A stretch of 60,578 bases of DNA from Planctomycetota bacterium. Its GTDB lineage: Bacteria; Planctomycetota; Planctomycetia; Pirellulales; Pirellulaceae. Shown here in pieces: positions 6,178 through 46,996 of the stretch. The notes under the pieces were generated by a model. It was not told where the DNA came from. It saw nothing but the letters and a program-made list of their open reading frames with translations, and ran no database searches. How positions within the stretch are numbered: position 1 is the first letter of the stretch; each line of letters opens with the position of its first letter. The stretch covers positions 1 through 60,578 of the forward strand of contig JAQCHP010000012.1 in assembly GCA_027619595.1 (NCBI GenBank), read 5' to 3'. The translations under genes were made by a program, and so were the position numbers.

Positions 6178-6296
6178 TTCGCTAAACTGGTTGAGTTGTC
6201 CTATCTCCAATCGGGCAGAAGTACGTAGATTTAATTGCACCGTGAAATCGTGACGTGTGGGTGGCGCAGGTTCGGCTACGGCGAATCGAATCCACT

Positions 6297-6315
6297 CCTT
6301 TCGCGGAGCGAAAGG
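6297..6315 (+). promoter_or_regulatory. Perfect hairpin covering the ribosome binding site of the WYL regulator
   Basis: CCTTTCGC and GCGAAAGG form a perfect 8 bp stem with a three-base GGA loop, ending five bases before the ATG at 6321. The only Shine-Dalgarno-like bases (AAAGG) are inside the 3' arm, so folding would hide them. The same palindrome in DNA could instead be an operator. Which of the two applies is not decided by the sequence. Confidence 0.55.
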
Positions 6316-6320
6316 CGACC

Positions 6321-7370
6321 ATGGCACGTAACGAACAGCTCATCCGGCAGCATCGTATCTTGCAAATCCTTGAACGATTCCGGTTCGGAGTTCCGCTCGA
6401 AGAACTGCGCGATATGTTGGTGGAAGAGTTGGGGCTTTCAGCGTTGCACACACGCAGCGTCCGCCGTGACCTAGCGGCGCTCCAGGCTTCGGGAATCGAT
6501 GTCGACGTAGAAGACAATCCTCGCGGTCGTGTGTGGAAGTTGGGGCCGCGTTTTAAGGGCACTCATACGATTGCCGCCTCAGCTACGGAACTCATCGCAC
6601 TGTCGCTTGGGCGTGACCTCTTGCTGCCGCTTGTCGGTACGCCGTTCTGGATGGGCATCGAGTCATTTTGGACCAAGGTCCAAGAAAGTCTTCCCGACGG
6701 CGTTTGGAGTCACTATCAGCGCTATCGCCGCGTTTTACATGTGCTCGGATTGCCGACAAAATCGTACGCGGACCAACAAGGGACCCTCAAGACTATCAAT
6801 CGAGCAATCCTCGAACACCGTGTCTTGGAGGCGGAATACCAATCGCTACAAGAGGCCAAACCAAGTCTGCGACAACTCGCACCGTACGGGCTCGTACTCT
6901 ACCAGGGGAGTCTGTATGTCGTCGCTGAAAACTACCCTCAGGTTCCCCAAGCGAAGATGAAACATTTTAAGCTCGACCGCTTTCGTAAAGCGACGGCGCT
7001 CGACAACTGGTTCGATCCGCAAGCAGATTTTTCACTCGAAGAATACTTGCAAGGGAGCATGAGTATTTTCAGTGGCGGCCAACCACAGAAATTTTGCATC
7101 CGCGTTTCGGCATATGCGTTACCGTGGTTATTGGAAGATCCTTGGCATAAGGAACAAAAGGTCGATCCGCTGGACGATGGTGGCGGCATTATTACTCTGC
7201 ACGCCGCTCATCCCCTGGAAATTCTACCGCGTGTCTTGGCACTCGGCAGTCAGGCCGAAGTCCTGGAGCCGCAATCGTGCCGAGAAACTTTGGCGCGAAT
7301 CGCTCGGGATATGCTCGAAAAGTACGCGCCAACCGGTTCGGAGTCGCTCAATCAAACGCTGACCAAATGA
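6321..7370 (+). CDS. HTH-WYL domain transcriptional regulator
   Basis: A 349-residue regulator of the WYL (YafY/PafC-like) family. Residues 1-65 form a winged helix-turn-helix: RQHRILQILERFRFGVPLEEL, then TRSVRRDLAALQASGIDVDV. The middle (about 140-220) is a WYL-type domain with NRAILEHRVLEAEYQS, APYGLVLYQGSLYVVAEN and the FKLDRFRKA strand. The end is a WCX-like oligomerisation domain. The canonical W-Y-L triplet reads A-P-Y-G-L here, within normal family variation. WYL regulators often respond to nucleic acid or nucleotide ligands in DNA-damage or phage-defence contexts. The first ATG after an in-frame upstream extension is chosen, as the HTH then starts at its usual place. A perfect hairpin covers its ribosome binding site, suggesting control of its own synthesis. 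Confidence 0.88.
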   Translation: MARNEQLIRQHRILQILERFRFGVPLEELRDMLVEELGLSALHTRSVRRDLAALQASGIDVDVEDNPRGRVWKLGPRFKGTHTIAASATELIALSLGRDLLLPLVGTPFWMGIESFWTKVQESLPDGVWSHYQRYRRVLHVLGLPTKSYADQQGTLKTINRAILEHRVLEAEYQSLQEAKPSLRQLAPYGLVLYQGSLYVVAENYPQVPQAKMKHFKLDRFRKATALDNWFDPQADFSLEEYLQGSMSIFSGGQPQKFCIRVSAYALPWLLEDPWHKEQKVDPLDDGGGIITLHAAHPLEILPRVLALGSQAEVLEPQSCRETLARIARDMLEKYAPTGSESLNQTLTK

Positions 7371-7435
7371 CGAAGCATGGCTGAGATACCGCAAGTGGCT
7401 CACCATTTATCTGCTCCGAAATTGCTGGCCGTGAC

Positions 7436-8055
7436 GCGCAGGAGCACGCTGGAAATAGCGTTCAATTCAGGGCAGACCAAACCAGCGGGCTACGGAGATG
7501 TGCGCGCAATCGACGTTGCAGTGATTGGACGCCGGTAGCAGAGGCACGCCATCGTCTCCGGAGATGGCCGAGTTACGCGATTGGTGATGGCAAGTTTGCG
7601 CCGGCCATCTCCTCCTTGATCGTTTAACCGCGACGCGGAGGAGTCCGCTGCTAACCAAACGATCATCTCAGTCCAGACGCAATCAGCGGACTCCGAAGAC
7701 GAGCCCGCAATCGACGTTGCAGTGATTGAACGCCGGTACCAGAGGCACGCGCTCGTCTCCGGAGATGGCCGGTCGATAGCGGTGTGTGGTGGTAGGCTCT
7801 ATCCCGGCCATCTCCTCCGCGTCGCGGTTAAACGAGCGCGCAGGAGCCCGCTGGAAATGGCGTTCGAGTCAGGGCAGACCAAATCAGCGGGCTACGGAGA
7901 TGTGCGCGCAATCGACGTTGCAGTGATTGGACGCCGGTACCAGAGGCACGCGCTCGTCTCCGGAGCTGGCCGGTCGATAGCGGTGTGTGGCGGTAGGCTC
8001 TATTCCGGCCATCTCCTCCGCGTCGCGGTTAAACGACGACGTAGGCGCCCGCTGG
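7436..8055. repeat. Tandem array of ~201 bp units with two alternating stem-loops
   Basis: About three units of roughly 201 bp lie between the convergent WYL and MMPL genes. Marker strings recur at 7511, 7712 and 7913 (CGACGTTGCAGTGATTG). Hairpin A recurs at 7560, 7761 and 7962 (GGAGATGGCC with GGCCATCTCC; 10 bp perfect in unit 1, 12 bp perfect in unit 2, one mismatch in unit 3). Hairpin B recurs at about 7441, 7640 and 7844 (GAGCCCGCTG-type arm with CAGCGGGCT-type arm). In the middle copy of hairpin B the arms read GGAGTCCGCTG and CAGCGGACTCC, so one C-G pair has become T-A on both sides. The GTCGCGGTTAAACG element next to hairpin A in units 2 and 3 is inverted in unit 1. The array ends six bases before the stop of the MMPL gene. 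Confidence 0.85.
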
Positions 8056-8060
8056 CGACA

Positions 8061-10355
8061 CTAGGTTGCTTTCCTTGGCCCAAACATCGATAGCAGCGCC
8101 GGTAAAATCACAAGGTCGCCGAAAAGAGCTGAACTAACGGCGATGGCACACATGGTAGCGAAAATGTGGTGGTCTCGTGAATCACTGAATGCCACCGTCG
8201 CAAACCCGGCCACCAGCACCGTCGTCGTCATAATCATCGCCACGCCAACACCAGAAAATGCCTGTCGAATCGCGGTGTTGTTATCTCCGGACGTTGGCCG
8301 TGTTTCCACATAACGTGACAGGAAATGGGTCGTATCGTCGACGACGACCCCTAAAGAGACGGTCAGAGCACACACACTCACAATCTCTAGCGAGTAACCG
8401 GCGACCACCAGGTAGGTCCCGGTCAATGCCAACGGAAAAACAGTTGGAATCACGGCAATGACGCCAAGGCGCCATGATCGGTAGCAGAGTCCCAATGTCA
8501 CGAAAATAATAATCGCCGCTGCCCCGAGACTTCTCGCCAAATCGACCACGATTCGATACAGATGACGCCACCGCCAAACCACGTCCCCGTCCAAGAACAA
8601 ACGAAAGGAAGGATACGATGACAGAATTTCACGCAGCTTATGTTCAATCCGTTCAAAGGTAGGACCCAACTCCGCGATTCCTCGATCTCGCACGCGGAAG
8701 CGGACGACCGCGTGCCGATCCTCGACCGAAAAAAATTCTCGTTTAATCGGGGGTGGCAGCAACTCCATCATCGACAAGTCGTCAGTAAGGTTTCGCTCGC
8801 CGGGCAAAGTAGCAATAAGATTGCGAATTGACAGTGGATTGTGGACCTCCGTTTCTGATTGCAAGAATTCATCAACAGCACGGATGATCTCTAGTAATTG
8901 TTTTGCGGCTGTGGCGGGAGCAATATCGTCGTCCCAGCGAACCCTCACCTCAGCAAATTCGATCCCGCCGATCGAACGGTCAATCTGAAGCAGACCGCGG
9001 TAGGCTTCGCTCTGTTCTGGCAGGTCATTCGACCGCTTATGGTCGGGTCGCAACAAAAGTGATATGCCGACCAGTACCAGAGTGCTGATGATTCCAGCGA
9101 TTCCGACGAATCGGCTCCGGGGTAGTACCCATTCGAGCAGATAGCGGACCTGTCCAAGGTTCCGATCGATGAGACTTTTTTCATGACCCAAGTGCAGACT
9201 ACGACCCAGCGACGTCGAACACAAAAGTGGAATGGTCGCCAGTACGGAGACAAACGTAACAAAAATCCCAAGGACACTGCACCAGCCAAAGTCTTGGACC
9301 GCGCGATTGTGTGCTAATGCCAAGGACCCCATACCAATCGCCGTAGTAAGCGAGGTGAGCATACAAGCCCAACCGACATCCTTAACAGTAGCCTGAGATG
9401 CATCACGTACATCGAGTCCAGCAGCTCGCAACTGTCGGAAGCGGACCATGAGGTGCACACCATCGGTAAAGCCGACCAAACTGACCATAATCGGAAGAAT
9501 GACCTCGTTGAATGGGTTGTCTTGCAGGTCAAAGAACCGCAAGAATCCGATTGTCCAATAGACTCCCAATGCCGGTCCAAGTGCAACAATCAATACGGCA
9601 CGGATACCGCGAAAAAGCACTACGGCCATCAGCAAGATGATTCCATAACCAATGACCTGGTATTTTAGTCGATTGGCCTCGTGGGCTCGAAGCGCAGTGA
9701 TTAGTGATGGGATATTCCCAGTTACAGTAAAATTCATCGGAACGCTTGGATACTCTCGCGCTACGCGCTCCGCCACCTGTCGCAGTTCCGACGTACACTG
9801 TTCATCGCTGCGAACAGTTTCGAAATCAAAGCTCACAAGCAACAGTAACGTCTGCCCGTCACGCGACAATAATTGCCCCCCCACAAATGGATGTTGTAGG
9901 GCCGTCGCGCGTGCCGCCGCAAACCGCTCGGATGAATTATCAGAACGTGGAAACAAGGGATCGGACAGACCGAAGATATTCAGGTTGGGGATACGATCCA
10001 TCCAAAGAACGTCTCGCACATACTCCAGGCCTTCAATTGCCGCAACAACATGCCGCAGCGCGTCGGCACCACCGGGCGTGAAAAACTCAGTGGATGTGAC
10101 GACCAGTATCGCGTCGCCCCCAAAGAGGGACAGAGGATCTGATTTGGATCGAGACGTGGTCGCGTTAGAATTCTTAACTTGTACGGTTTTATCGGTTTCG
10201 GTCGCGACCGAGTCGATCCACCATGCTCGTACCAGTCCCGGGTCAACGTAGCCAATGGTCGCCATAACTGTCATGCAAAAGAGTAGGACGGTCACCGCAA
10301 ACCGGTGCACCACCATCGAAGCCATCGCTCGATCGAACGCCGACTTCATACGCAT
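8061..10355 (-). CDS. RND superfamily (MMPL-type) exporter
   Basis: A 764-residue membrane protein with the layout of MMPL/HpnN-like RND exporters: one N-terminal membrane helix (VVHRFAVTVLLFCMTVMATIG), a large periplasmic domain, five membrane helices around residues 225-400, a second periplasmic domain, and five more helices at the end. Recognisable parts are FNEVILPIMVSLVGFTDGVH in the first half and VCALTVSLGVVVDDTTHFLS in the second. Acidic residues in the helices (GFTDG, VVDDTTHF) fit proton coupling. Family substrates include lipids, hopanoids and sterol-like molecules. The ATG at 10355 is the first that leaves the upstream gene intact; no strong ribosome site is visible. It starts 29 bases after the stop of the copper-monooxygenase gene and is probably the last gene of that operon. 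Confidence 0.88.
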   Translation of the reverse strand: MRMKSAFDRAMASMVVHRFAVTVLLFCMTVMATIGYVDPGLVRAWWIDSVATETDKTVQVKNSNATTSRSKSDPLSLFGGDAILVVTSTEFFTPGGADALRHVVAAIEGLEYVRDVLWMDRIPNLNIFGLSDPLFPRSDNSSERFAAARATALQHPFVGGQLLSRDGQTLLLLVSFDFETVRSDEQCTSELRQVAERVAREYPSVPMNFTVTGNIPSLITALRAHEANRLKYQVIGYGIILLMAVVLFRGIRAVLIVALGPALGVYWTIGFLRFFDLQDNPFNEVILPIMVSLVGFTDGVHLMVRFRQLRAAGLDVRDASQATVKDVGWACMLTSLTTAIGMGSLALAHNRAVQDFGWCSVLGIFVTFVSVLATIPLLCSTSLGRSLHLGHEKSLIDRNLGQVRYLLEWVLPRSRFVGIAGIISTLVLVGISLLLRPDHKRSNDLPEQSEAYRGLLQIDRSIGGIEFAEVRVRWDDDIAPATAAKQLLEIIRAVDEFLQSETEVHNPLSIRNLIATLPGERNLTDDLSMMELLPPPIKREFFSVEDRHAVVRFRVRDRGIAELGPTFERIEHKLREILSSYPSFRLFLDGDVVWRWRHLYRIVVDLARSLGAAAIIIFVTLGLCYRSWRLGVIAVIPTVFPLALTGTYLVVAGYSLEIVSVCALTVSLGVVVDDTTHFLSRYVETRPTSGDNNTAIRQAFSGVGVAMIMTTTVLVAGFATVAFSDSRDHHIFATMCAIAVSSALFGDLVILPALLSMFGPRKAT

Positions 10356-10383
10356 GGCCCGAGCAACAAAGAAACTTCTTGTA

Positions 10384-12402
10384 TCATTGTGAATGACGCC
10401 GTTCGGCGACGGCCTGAACTTCGGCCCGCTCAATCTTCAAATCGTTGTTGGTATCAAACCGCCAGAAGTTGAACCGAACAACGACCGGTGCTTCGGCGCG
10501 GTGCACCACACCGTCGCCGTTCGCGTCGAGCTTTTGAAAGAACTCGTCCACAAATTGTTGCACGCGTTGCTGACGGTCGACCGTCGCCTCTAATTTCACC
10601 GACGGTTCTGCTGTCTCGGACGGTACTTCCGCAACTTCCGGCTGGAGTGGCACGGCCACTTCGAGAAAGGCGACCGCCATCTCTTCCCATGTCTGATCGC
10701 CCCAGTGGACCCATTGCGACGGGTCGGGGTTCACGGGATTTTCAGCAGAATTATCAAACGATGCTGCGAAGCGAATTCGATCGAATTCGCGGAGAGGCCG
10801 CGGCGTTGACAGCTCATACGAATGCTGCCAGTTGAAATCGTATTTTGGTACATGCAGCAATATTTCGGTCGTACCTTGATGATCGCCAAATAAAGTGAAC
10901 GCTCTTCCGCGGATATGCATATGAGGTGCCACCGCCAATAAATGTCCATCACCCGGAATCCACTGAACCTCACCTGAAACGATGTGATTTTTGGCGTGCG
11001 GCGGAATCTCGAATTCTTGGTCCAAAGCGATCAAAGTGATCATTTCATGGGTCACGAGCGAACGGTCGATCCGAGTGAGACCGACACGTGTAAGATCACG
11101 CTGTGGAGCCCCATTCGTGGTATAGTGCATCTGGAAAACGAACTTCGACCCGGCAGGTATCTTTCGCGCATATCCTTGCGGAATATTGGGCAAACGCTGA
11201 CCCGGCACGTAGGCAGTCAGCCAACCGACACCCCGCACGTCGCTGCCGTCAGGTGGCCGAATGAATACAATAGCATGGTGCACGACACTGCGATTTCCAG
11301 GAATGATTTGCGCCTCCGCAACCCACTGGTCTTCCGTAAATTTTGGATCGACGACAAAGTATTGGTATTCCACCGTCCCTTCAGCCGGAACGTCGTACGG
11401 CTGCTCTCGCATGCTAAAGACATGATCGGGTTGGCTTTCAAGTTGCCACTCGAGTGACTGCGACCGTTCCGGAGGTAATACATCCGCGTCCCCTTTTGGC
11501 ATCCCTGAGGCGACCCAATTTCGGATCAAGGTTTTCTCCTGTTCGGACATAATCCGCGCATTGGCAAAACTACCAACCGCCGGGTCGGCATGCCACGGAG
11601 GCATGCGTCCGTTGTCGATCACTTCGACGATTGTATCTCCCCAACCAAGAGTTTCCTCATATCGTTCCATAGCAAACGGACCGATTTCTCCAGGACGGTG
11701 ACAGTCAACACAGAACTTTTCCAGAATAGGTCTGACGTCGTGACTATAGTTGACGCCCACGGGTGCAGTGACGACAGTCTCTTGCTTGATCCTACCGATC
11801 TTACAGCCGACGGCTTCGGTGCGCTGAATCTCGACCGACTTGCCAGCCAGTAATTGTTCCAAAGCGATTCGCAGGTCGTGTCGTGTGGCGGACGCCCGTT
11901 TCACTCCTGGTTGAAATTGATCATCGATCCGTCCCTGGTATTGCAGGCTGAGTTGGCGGTCGAGAACAAATACCTCGGGAGTACGAGTCGCTCCGTAGCG
12001 ATCCGCAATCGTACTGCCAACATCTCGCACCACAGGGAACGACCATGAATGTTCTTCTGAAAATTGCATGATGTCAGACGAAGAGTCCTGAGAGTTGCTA
12101 TTCACGGCAAAGAACGCGACCCCCTGTGGAACAAACCCTTCGACAAGCTCATTCATTCTCTTCGCATATAGGTGTGCTAGGGGGCATTCAGTCCCAAAGA
12201 AGAGTACCACGGTGGCTCGAACGTCTTGATTCGCTCCGACAACTGCCTCTTGTTGTCCGATCGTCGCGGTTTCAAATGCATACGGACTGATGCTGGCCGT
12301 GGAAAAACTCGCCTCATTCGCTTCAGAAATTGCAGCCGCGAGGGCAGTAATCCAGGCCAACGTGCCTGCAGATATCGCCAATACAATACGTAGTGTCCCC
12401 AT
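10384..12402 (-). CDS. Exported redoxin / haem-c / copper monooxygenase-like / EF-hand fusion protein
   Basis: A 672-residue planctomycete fusion protein with a signal peptide. Domains in order: a redoxin-like part (about 50-190) with FFGTECPLAHLYAKR, having one Cys where thioredoxins have two; a cytochrome-like segment with the haem motif CVDCH at about 232-236 and the NGRMPPWHADP signature; a copper type II ascorbate-dependent monooxygenase-like beta sandwich (about 330-590) with likely copper ligands in SVVHHAIVF, FQMHYTTNG and APHMHIRG; and a C-terminal EF-hand pair (DANGDGVVHRAE and DTNNDLKIERAE). It should work outside the cytoplasm in redox or copper chemistry; the substrate is unknown. 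The ATG at 12402 places the signal peptide correctly. It is followed closely by the MMPL exporter. Confidence 0.85.
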   Translation of the reverse strand: MGTLRIVLAISAGTLAWITALAAAISEANEASFSTASISPYAFETATIGQQEAVVGANQDVRATVVLFFGTECPLAHLYAKRMNELVEGFVPQGVAFFAVNSNSQDSSSDIMQFSEEHSWSFPVVRDVGSTIADRYGATRTPEVFVLDRQLSLQYQGRIDDQFQPGVKRASATRHDLRIALEQLLAGKSVEIQRTEAVGCKIGRIKQETVVTAPVGVNYSHDVRPILEKFCVDCHRPGEIGPFAMERYEETLGWGDTIVEVIDNGRMPPWHADPAVGSFANARIMSEQEKTLIRNWVASGMPKGDADVLPPERSQSLEWQLESQPDHVFSMREQPYDVPAEGTVEYQYFVVDPKFTEDQWVAEAQIIPGNRSVVHHAIVFIRPPDGSDVRGVGWLTAYVPGQRLPNIPQGYARKIPAGSKFVFQMHYTTNGAPQRDLTRVGLTRIDRSLVTHEMITLIALDQEFEIPPHAKNHIVSGEVQWIPGDGHLLAVAPHMHIRGRAFTLFGDHQGTTEILLHVPKYDFNWQHSYELSTPRPLREFDRIRFAASFDNSAENPVNPDPSQWVHWGDQTWEEMAVAFLEVAVPLQPEVAEVPSETAEPSVKLEATVDRQQRVQQFVDEFFQKLDANGDGVVHRAEAPVVVRFNFWRFDTNNDLKIERAEVQAVAERRHSQ

Positions 12403-35116: not shown

Positions 35117-38100
35117 ATGCTATTCCGCTTGGGATTTTGGAATTTAGCGCAACGCCTTGGTGGGCAGCGTCGGGGATGGATGCGTCCCGGGAATCATCGC
35201 CAGCGATTGGCAAGCCGTTCACGACGGCTATTTCGGGAGACGCTTGAGACACGAGCGATGTTAGCCGTCTCCGGAACTGAGCCGGCCATCATCGGTACTG
35301 TCTTCCGCGACGCAAATGGTAACGGCGTATTTTCTAATAGTGAGGGGCTCGCAGGAGTTGCCGTACAGCTCTTCCGTGATGATGGCGACAGCCTCTTCGA
35401 AACAGACGGAAGCGACGTTCAAATCGGACCCGATTTCGTCACGCTGGCGGGTGGAATTTATGAATTTGACAATCTCGACGCAGACGCCAGGTACTTTGTG
35501 CGTCAGCAAGCACAAACCGTCAGTGGAAATTCGCTCGGACTTAAAGTTTCGCCGCTGACCGCGCCGGGGGTTCCCGGGATTACCATCGATTCGTTTTCGA
35601 CAAGTCATAATACCAGCGCAAGTCCCGCAGACCCAACTCCCGCTGAAAGTCGCATCGCAGCGGCGGAAGCGCTCGGCGGCGAACGCGACATCGCGGCGGT
35701 CTGGACGACGGGGTCTAATTCTTTCGACGTGGAAGTGAGCCCATTTGCGTCCGACTCGCTGCAAATATCAACGGGTCCCGGCGTGAATGGTCTAGGGACC
35801 GTAGTCTGGGACGGAATCGATACGGTCGATCACCAAATCGCGATGGGCCTCAATGGTGTGGATTTAACTACCGGAGGCAACACCGGATTTGTCGTGAGAT
35901 TAGGTGCAGAACCCGCGGGCGCTACTCTGAACCTAAGAATCTACAACGGGAACGTCGGGAATTTCTCCGAAGTCTCCGCACCGATCCCCAACACCGGAGG
36001 CGGCACAGCCTCTGAATTTTTGATAATTCCGTTTAGTGGATTGGTCGGAGCGGTCACACCATTCGATGTTGACGCCATACGCATGACGATCGACGGTGGC
36101 GGAGCGGCCGCTGACACCGGGGTAAGCCTCTTTGGGACCATCGGCGCGAAGGTGGTCAATTTCCAAAACGAAGCACGGATCGACCTCACCATCACGAAGG
36201 ACGACTCGGTAGCAATCGTAAACCCATTGCAACAGGTCAATTATACGGTTCGCGTGACAAATCTGGGGCCGAGCGACGTGATCGACGCAAACGTCGTGGA
36301 TAATTTCCCGAGTAGCCTGACACTCGTTAGCTACACGACTACAACCACCGGAACGGTTTCGGGCCAAAGCACCAGTGGTACTGGAAACATTAACGACTTG
36401 GTCAATATGGCAGCTGGCAGCACCCTGACTTACAACGTCATCGCGACCGTTGCGGCAAATGCGTCGGGACAACTCGTGAACACCGCCACAGTAACTGCCC
36501 CCAGCGGTGTACTGGATATTAACGTCTCGAACAACTCAGATACCGATATAGACACCATCCAAACTACCGTCGACTTGCAAATTACCAAGACTGACGGGCT
36601 CAGCACAGTACGCCAGGGGCAACAGATCACTTACATCATCGTAGTGAGCAATGCTGGTCCCAGTGACATTTTAGGAGCTGCCGTTACCGACACGTTCCCT
36701 AATTCATTGACCAATGTTACGTTCACGAGCAGTACCACGACGGGCACCGTCTCGGGTAACACGGCGTCGGGCACAGGACATATTAACGATCTGATTAACA
36801 TTTCGGCCAATAGTTCGGTAACCTATACGGTCAACGCGACGGTCTCACCGACGGCAACCGGGAGTATTTCAAATACGGCCATCGTCAGTCCACCCATCAA
36901 CGTGACCGACATCGATACGGACAACAACTCGGCTGTCGACACCGACGTTGTCGTACCCGTCGCAGATCTTTCCATTACGAAAACGGATGGACAGACCCAG
37001 GTGACACCGGGCCAAGTTTTGACCTACACGATTACTGTAAACAATCAAGGACCCAGCGCGGTCACGGGGGCCACGGTGGCCGATACATTTCCTGCCGGTC
37101 TAACGGCGGTGAGCTTCACTAGTATCGCGGCGGGCGGCGCCACGGGAAATTCGGCCACGGGAACGAATGCGATTAATGATACCGTGAACCTGCCCAATGG
37201 TGGATCCATTGTTTACACAGTTACGGCCACCGTAGCGAACAATGCTGCCGGCACGATCGAGAATACAGCGACCGTCCTATCGCCAAACGGCGTTGACGAC
37301 CCGACACCGATCAACAATACGGCGGTAGATACCGACACGGTCCAACCGTTGGTCGACTTATCGGTCACAAAAACTGACGGAGTTACCACTGCGGTTCCCG
37401 GACAAAACGTTACTTACACCATCGTCGTGTCAAACGCTGGGCCAAGCATTGCGACGGGAGCTACGTTTACAGACACGTTCCCAGCGGCACTGCAGAACCC
37501 CACCTTTACGAGCATCGCAGCCGGCGGCGCCAGCGGAAACACAGCCAGCGGATCGGGGAACCTAAATCAAACGCTCAACCTGCCGGTTGGAGCGTCGGTA
37601 ACTTATACGGTGTCGGGCACAGTGTCTCCCAATGCAACTGTTTCGCTCGCCAACACGGCGACCGTAACCGCGCCGACGGGGGCTGCGGAAACCGTTACGA
37701 TCAATAACACGGCGACAGACACCGATACACTCAATCCAACCGCTGATCTGTCGGTGACAAAGACGAACAATGTCAATTCGGTCGTGCCAGGTCAGTCGAC
37801 AACGTATGTCATCGTGGTATCCAACGCCGGTCCAAGCACTGTGGCGGGTGCAGCGTTTACGGATACTTTTCCCGCGAACTTACAAAACGTCACGTTCACG
37901 AGTTCGGCTTTGGGGGGCGCCACCGGCAACACGGCGAGTGGCTCCGAAAACTTGAACCAAACGCTCACCATGCCACCCAACAGCTCGGTAACGTACAACG
38001 TGACCGGGACAGTGAGTTCCAGTGCGACGGGGAGTCTCGCCAACACAGCAACGGTCACAGCACCTTCCGGAGTAACGGAAGTTAACACATCCAACAACAC

Positions 38101-46913: not shown

Positions 46914-46996
46914 ACACAGTACTGCTGCGCAGCACCCACACTGCGCAGCACCCACACTGCGCACCCCCCACACTGCGCAGCACCGTTACTGTGTAA
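46914..46996. repeat. Short tandem repeat CACACTGCGCAGCACC flanked by inverted repeat
   Basis: About three and a half copies of a 13-18 base unit with core CACTGCGCAGCAC lie between 46918 and 46985. The array is bracketed by ACACAGTA (46914-46921) and TACTGTGT (46987-46994), so the whole element could fold into one large hairpin with TGCGCAGC arms. It lies 45 bases upstream of the mprF start. Copy number may vary between strains. Confidence 0.8.

Follow-up and report, generated by a model that had tools for sequence, protein, structure and literature searches.

MITEs are short, non-coding and bounded by terminal inverted repeats. The element that we describe here is likewise short and non-coding, with terminal inverted repeats common to many copies and a variable core, but no autonomous parent was found for it at the two spaced motif pairs that were looked at. 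A further comparison is with REPINs, which parts of the work describing them (Bertels and Rainey 2011, PMC3116915) present as extragenic, inverted doublets of hairpin-forming repeats, with singlets as remnants. Our element resembles them in each of these respects, and also in the ordered tandem clusters of near-identical units, which the same passages describe for REPINs, although a REPIN need not have them. Nevertheless, the halves of the element are about 100 nt long, whereas the REPs of a REPIN are short in those passages, its common end of 13–18 bp closes a four-way junction, and no RAYT flanked by the element was seen in the scanned loci. Since this link to a RAYT was tested and not found, we consider the element to be REPIN-like in its working and do not file it as a REPIN.

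The tagged REPs offer another point of comparison. In the sections of Di Nocera 2013 (PMC3733652) that concern them, CGTC REPs have stems of 8–9 bp and mostly loops of 4–5 nt, and GTAG/CGTC-tagged REPs lie between convergent or co-directional genes, near 3' ends, with many opposite pairs, as our element does. The stems of the element are longer (11–12 bp) than those given there, its loops are about 30 nt, and its constant part is the end motif. It has no short stem tagged by GTAG or CGTC; CGTC occurs in it, but inside the middle stem. Class 3 TnpA(Y1) genes, in the portion of PMC6006769 devoted to them, are accompanied by atypical hairpins, some of them multi-copy; the transposases themselves come principally from Planctomycetes, Acidobacteria and Proteobacteria, with Solibacter as a high-copy example. 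Our element also consists of atypical, multi-copy hairpins, but the class 3 structures of that account have a CnGA foot and lie on the flanks of their own transposase gene, and no such flanking was found for the element. The open-access literature that we searched held no description of these elements that we recognised, and looking up the end sequence letter by letter turned up papers on unrelated subjects, judging by their titles.

The locus lies in a window of 60,578 nucleotides, the whole stretch of DNA that was analysed. Three tandem units of 201 bp occupy 7435–8055 (TRF: period 201, 3.1 copies, 80% matches; the repeat finder agrees), and we interpret them as probably a tandem cluster of a non-autonomous, REPIN/MITE-like palindromic element. 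Both the three-unit array and its location, filling the gap between convergent genes at 6255–7370 (+) and 8061–10433 (−), agree with a preliminary description of this DNA. The features are listed below; our hairpin B is hairpin A of that description, and our hairpin A is its hairpin B.

6255–7370, + strand: gene for a WYL/WCX domain protein, convergent flank (Pfam)
7435–8055, no strand assigned: tandem array of three 201-bp units (TRF and repeat finder)
7440–7495, + strand: hairpin A of unit 1, with C-G where unit 2 has T-A, and one A.G mismatch
7560–7612, + strand: hairpin B of unit 1 (repeat finder and coordinates)
7609–7643, + strand: spacer between units 1 and 2, flipped terminal motif with CTCCT..GGAG arms, counterpart at 7812–7846 (inverted repeat)
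7620–7836, + strand: complete inverted-dimer element, a closed four-way junction when folded (DNA fold; same plan in the C247 copy)
7620–7632, + strand: terminal motif TCGTTTAACCGCG, left end of the complete element (exact match; common to relatives)
7640–7694, + strand: hairpin A of unit 2, arms GGAGTCCGCTG / CAGCGGACTCC (fold and coordinates)
7697–7758, + strand: middle stem AGACGAGC / GCTCGTCT with its loop (folds)
7761–7815, + strand: hairpin B of unit 2, arms GGAGATGGCCGG / CCGGCCATCTCC (repeat finder, coordinates)
7823–7835, − strand: terminal motif, right end of the complete element (coordinates)
7842–7897, + strand: hairpin A of unit 3
7962–8016, + strand: hairpin B of unit 3 (repeat finder and coordinates)
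8024–8036, − strand: terminal motif, right end of unit 3, with the RND gene's 3' end 24 nt away
8061–10433, − strand: gene for an MMPL/RND-type membrane protein, convergent flank (Pfam)

Elsewhere in the window, TRF reports a short tandem repeat at 46925–46984 (period 16, 3.8 copies). An assignment to a known Rfam RNA was rejected, the best match (17.8 bits against the 41 needed) lying at 8105–8182, outside the array. The scan for intrinsic terminators (GC stem plus T run, loops of 3–8) found none, with 0.8 expected in shuffles. The bidirectional terminator suggested in the preliminary description is thus not borne out, as 7300–8200 contains no T-tract terminator, and the position at gene 3' ends is compatible with such a function and not demonstrative of it.

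The two hairpins belong to a cycle, in which hairpin A is followed by the middle stem, then by hairpin B and lastly by a spacer whose arms are CTCCT and AGGAG-like. The left arms of hairpin B (GGAGATGGCCGG and two one-letter variants), at 7560, 7761 and 7962, are exactly 201 apart, as had been stated for the whole hairpin, but the right arms CCGGCCATCTCC, at 7601, 7804 and 8005, are separated by steps of 203 and 201. In hairpin A, the replacement of C-G by T-A in the middle unit (GAGTCCGCTG/CAGCGGACTC, against GAGCCCGCTG/CAGCGGGCT in unit 3) had already been seen; we find in addition that unit 1 (GAGCACGCTG/CAGCGGGCT) keeps the C-G pair and carries one A.G mismatch. The sub-element reported as inverted in unit 1 is the spacer between the CTCCT and AGGAG-like arms, which indeed has the sequence CGTTTAACCGC behind unit 1, and GCGGTTAAACG behind each of the other two units.

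In the complete element at 7620–7836, hairpin A, the middle stem and hairpin B follow one another between a left and a right end. These ends, of 18 bases each (TCGTTTAACCGCGACGCG and, as its reverse complement, CGCGTCGCGGTTAAACGA), close the four-way junction. Folded as single-stranded DNA, it reaches −66.6 kcal/mol (z −8.16), with none of 200 shuffles as good, and the C247 copy has its parts in the same order and, folded as RNA, shows the same plan. A covariance model built from 11 B-half copies identifies 21 places with E no higher than 1 in the host genome. On the opposite strand, this model picks up the A halves of C247 (65.5 bits) and of unit 2 in the window (7619–7720, 55.7 bits), and scores weaker on those of units 1 and 3 (24.5 and 23.8 bits), which shows that the element is an inverted dimer. 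The preliminary description had overlooked that the A half repeats the B half in inverted and diverged form.

The search for further copies proposed there was productive, since the array region matches 15 further loci in the host genome (5.18 Mb, 281 contigs), with a best E value of 2.1e-60, so that the array is not a chance pattern. The terminal 15-mer has 23 matches with at most one mismatch, compared to 0 for the reversed control, although a few of them (e.g. in C151 and C2) do not resemble element copies. Only two copies are complete, the one at 7620–7836 and C247. The others are mostly partial, some running from the last arm of hairpin B across the spacer to the first arm of hairpin A, and others from the right arm of the middle stem through hairpin B to the right end. 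At the DNA level, the 201-bp unit has homologues in the host genome only, that is, in 1 of 40 genomes and in none of the 39 others, and the exact pattern CCTNCGCGTCGCGGTTAAACG has no match in the GTDB r220 contigs, from which the host or very near genomes may be absent. We also observe a palindrome in host contig C97 (~35230–35310, in L082) with a TCGTTTAACCGCG end and a different core, so that several types of core may be present in the host genome.

Covariation was analysed in an alignment of 16 hand-cut hairpin halves, which omitted C196, C225, C267, C113, C197, C20 and C256, where one arm is missing or unaligned. The 12-pair stem is 91.7% paired in these halves, with 20 cells of two-sided change compared to 5.3 in shuffles, and the covariation score of 0.292 exceeds both the shuffles (0.107; reached by 0 of 500) and the slid versions (at most 0.104). 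The covariation check called for in the preliminary description is therefore positive, as was its copy search, although two of the five measures are unremarkable against shuffles; five pairs show a two-sided change, a number that 36 of 500 shuffles attain, while 424 of 500 attain the count of further pair types. Analysed alone, the 11 B copies show 5 two-sided cells, and the arm changes are concentrated in one block of three adjacent pairs.

The spacer takes one orientation at seven junctions (W1/2, C247-1, C196, C267, C225, C113 and C197) and the other at W2/3, C247-2 and C20, likewise at W3/end and in three B-only copies that were checked. The flanks of these junctions match on both sides, except in C113, whose left flank is different. 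The clearest flip is that between W1/2 and W2/3; each of the two spacers of C247 is at the same time just one end, left or right, of a single dimer. According to parts of PMC8604942, template switching at inverted repeats has two products, arm homogenisation and spacer inversion, and multi-base compensatory changes can arise by template switching, as stated in parts of PMC8794818. As both products are seen here, the covariation is no proof of an RNA, and it does not follow from the pair-preserving change, as had been suggested, that the structure matters. The two initial clues, the paired change and the flipped sub-element, thus share one mutational explanation. Caution is warranted, as paired changes in repeat hairpins, usually taken as a sign of RNA selection, here accompany spacer inversions.

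The terminal inverted repeat TCGTTTAACCGCG is common to some genomes of the same family, while the inner sequence varies between them. Exact places were found in 61 of 199 family genomes, with 554 in G221, 251 in G094, 207 in G006, 176 in G164, 32 each in G106 and G125, 23 in G082, 15 in the host genome, 11 in G095 and 0–7 in each of the remaining genomes, every palindromic element adding two to the count. The reversed control gives 0–1 in the nine top genomes and at most 3 in any family genome. Outside the family, the motif is at background level (10 of 290 genomes, with one place each, compared to 21 of 290 for the reversed control), and a similar CGTCGCGGCTAAACG is carried by G053 and G055, which represent two further families of the order. 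For one G006 gene, the highest-scoring relatives with a name are Rhodopirellula, Rubripirellula and their kin, and the family of the compared genomes is probably Pirellulaceae.

In these relatives, the same ends enclose other cores, as single palindromes or in tandem arrays. Palindromes of 67–96 bp with TCGTTTAACCGCG ends occur in G082, G106 (two, of which one is imperfect), G164, G015 and G023, and asymmetric units in tandem arrays occur in G006 and G221, where one of three G006 units folds into a branched structure. We observe many tandem arrays in G006:C1 and G221:C1, with a locus-specific period of about 96–164 bp, which suggests local amplification. In the genus of G221, 11 of the 13 sampled species have only 0–1 places compared to the 554 and 176 of the other two, a contrast that amounts to a natural experiment for tracing the responsible enzyme.

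We infer that copies of such an element would spread in trans through an enzyme recognising their ends, which would probably act on folded single-stranded DNA while the genome is replicated. Arrays would then grow locally by slippage or unequal exchange, and template switching at the inverted repeats would keep the arms matched and sometimes flip the spacer. The copies would persist mainly at gene 3' ends, either because they do the least harm there or because they provide a mild buffering of the 3' end. Of the two spaced motif pairs that were fetched, the one in G123 spans most of a 373-aa frame without a Pfam match, and in the one in G220 the motifs point outward. A search for an empty site retrieved 80 loci with relatives of a gene flanking the element in G006; the second flanking gene was not found in them, no synteny was seen, and none of the 80 holds the motif with at most one mismatch.

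The orientation of the copies was followed in G006, where each of the 18 clusters is uniform. The 18 loci are distributed as 6 (+) and 1 (−) before ~3.65 Mb, and 1 (+) and 10 (−) after it (Fisher p = 0.0025), a count that includes two (+) copies with other letters, one per half, and excludes two non-elements. Copies with the same end on both sides (near 5.387 Mb) cannot be oriented. The GC skew of G006 flips sign between 3.6 and 3.7 Mb, with 1 of 18 windows discordant, at 5.8 Mb. Element orientation follows the replichore in this one genome, with two exceptions and a break point picked post hoc. The coding bias of G006 is small (168,046 vs 123,779 bp), so that gene orientation alone does not readily explain the pattern. 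Copy orientation in the host genome shows no relation to local GC skew, and G221 was not used for this comparison, its motif places being on both strands in the same region. A broader, tentative possibility is that these sequences form a class of single-stranded DNA elements specific to one family, in which the conserved 13-bp end would close a hairpin or branched junction and a replication-coupled enzyme would multiply them, the cores turning over freely while the architecture persists. Such an enzyme would lead to the replichore orientation seen in G006.

Apart from a mobile element, the location of the copies might reflect a 3'-end element selected by the host, that is, a barrier working in both directions against read-through or 3' exonucleases, placed between convergent genes and multiplied to serve there. 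With gene calls from a simple codon-usage script, not an annotation, 8 of the 15 host loci with both neighbours lie in convergent gaps, compared to 27 convergent ones among the 188 adjacent gene pairs of those stretches (binomial p 4.5e-4; Fisher 2.1e-4). The TTAAACGA end faces a gene 3' end in 7 of 7 oriented host loci outside the window, at 0–271 bp, counting the loci with a called gene on that side (0.0078 for even odds). The sampled G006 windows, with 4 of 8 loci convergent compared to 34 of 189 pairs (p 0.04), and the stable folds also agree with this explanation. Nevertheless, there is no T-tract terminator, the C247 copy lies between divergent genes, and the other G006 loci comprise 2 co-directional and 2 divergent ones. 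Among 16 loci of G082, G106 and G164 (same-pair loci and G221 loci left out), only 3 of the 13 intergenic ones are convergent, compared to 9 co-directional and 1 divergent, and 3 lie inside called ORFs. Moreover, end-motif counts that range from 0 to 554 between relatives are unlike those of a housekeeping signal, and we consider a host-selected 3'-end element rather unlikely. A structured non-coding RNA conserved by selection, which had also been proposed, appears very unlikely. It is consistent with the arm covariation above shuffles and slides, which is statistically real, and with the fold of the single unit, for which the reverse strand beats 200 of 200 shuffles and the forward strand 198 of 200. 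However, the block changes and spacer flips fit template switching, the array has no Rfam match, the cores differ between relatives, and a scan covering sigma-70-like promoters found none.

The preliminary proposal of a REP/BIME-like mobile element holds in that the element is dispersed, intergenic, palindromic, an inverted doublet and tandemly clustered. In its strict sense, with mobilisation by a RAYT, we regard it as improbable. This anatomy matches that of REPINs as far as parts of PMC3116915 describe it, and Y1 transposase genes (PF01797) are present in the host genome and, among 16 chosen relatives, in 7 of 7 high-copy genomes, but they are also found in 6 of 9 low-copy genomes. The RAYT search that had been advised gave no RAYT flanked by the repeat among 35 Y1 transposase loci scanned for the motif. 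Allowing one mismatch, TCGTTTAACCGCG is absent from 30 Y1 loci of the relatives (of 79 matches), 19 of them from high-copy genomes, and from five Y1 loci of the host. A scan with short words took in seven host Y1 loci, and of the two beyond these five, one (L030) contains the bare 8-mer GGTTAAAC. The hairpins and loops are also far larger than those of the tagged CGTC REPs. Integron attC-like recombination sites were considered as well, as the GTTTAAC..GTTAAAC of the element presumably fits the R''/R' boxes of attC, and the host genome encodes a complete integron integrase (C27:5707–6657, L090; 446.5 bits vs a cut-off of 265). The motif (at most one mismatch) is nevertheless absent from the 16 kb surrounding this integrase, as it is from 12 kb surrounding one of G023's two integrases, and G006, with its 207 motif places, has no integron integrase above the cut-off. 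The identity with attC sites is thus largely refuted, and this origin is extremely improbable.

The host genome contains two relatives of Y1 transposases, L027 (C250:70505–72474) and L028 (C279:8965–12135, which reads in two frames), with the Pfam halves in reversed order. Profile positions 55–121, with the tyrosine, match residues 64–121 and are followed by positions 5–67, with DHVH, as a weak match (E = 0.014). From the order of these matches, the two genes could be circular permutations or fused pairs of half-degenerate domains. A second repeat family, CCGAGCTTGTCTCGGTAGGACGATGTTCACAACCAGA, with a period of 67–68, is arranged in inverted orientation around the genes of L027 and L028 (1210–2470) in a REPtron-like manner. 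It is also found at C221, C41, C46 and C104, and shares a fetched stretch with hairpin-B elements in 5 of 15 stretches.
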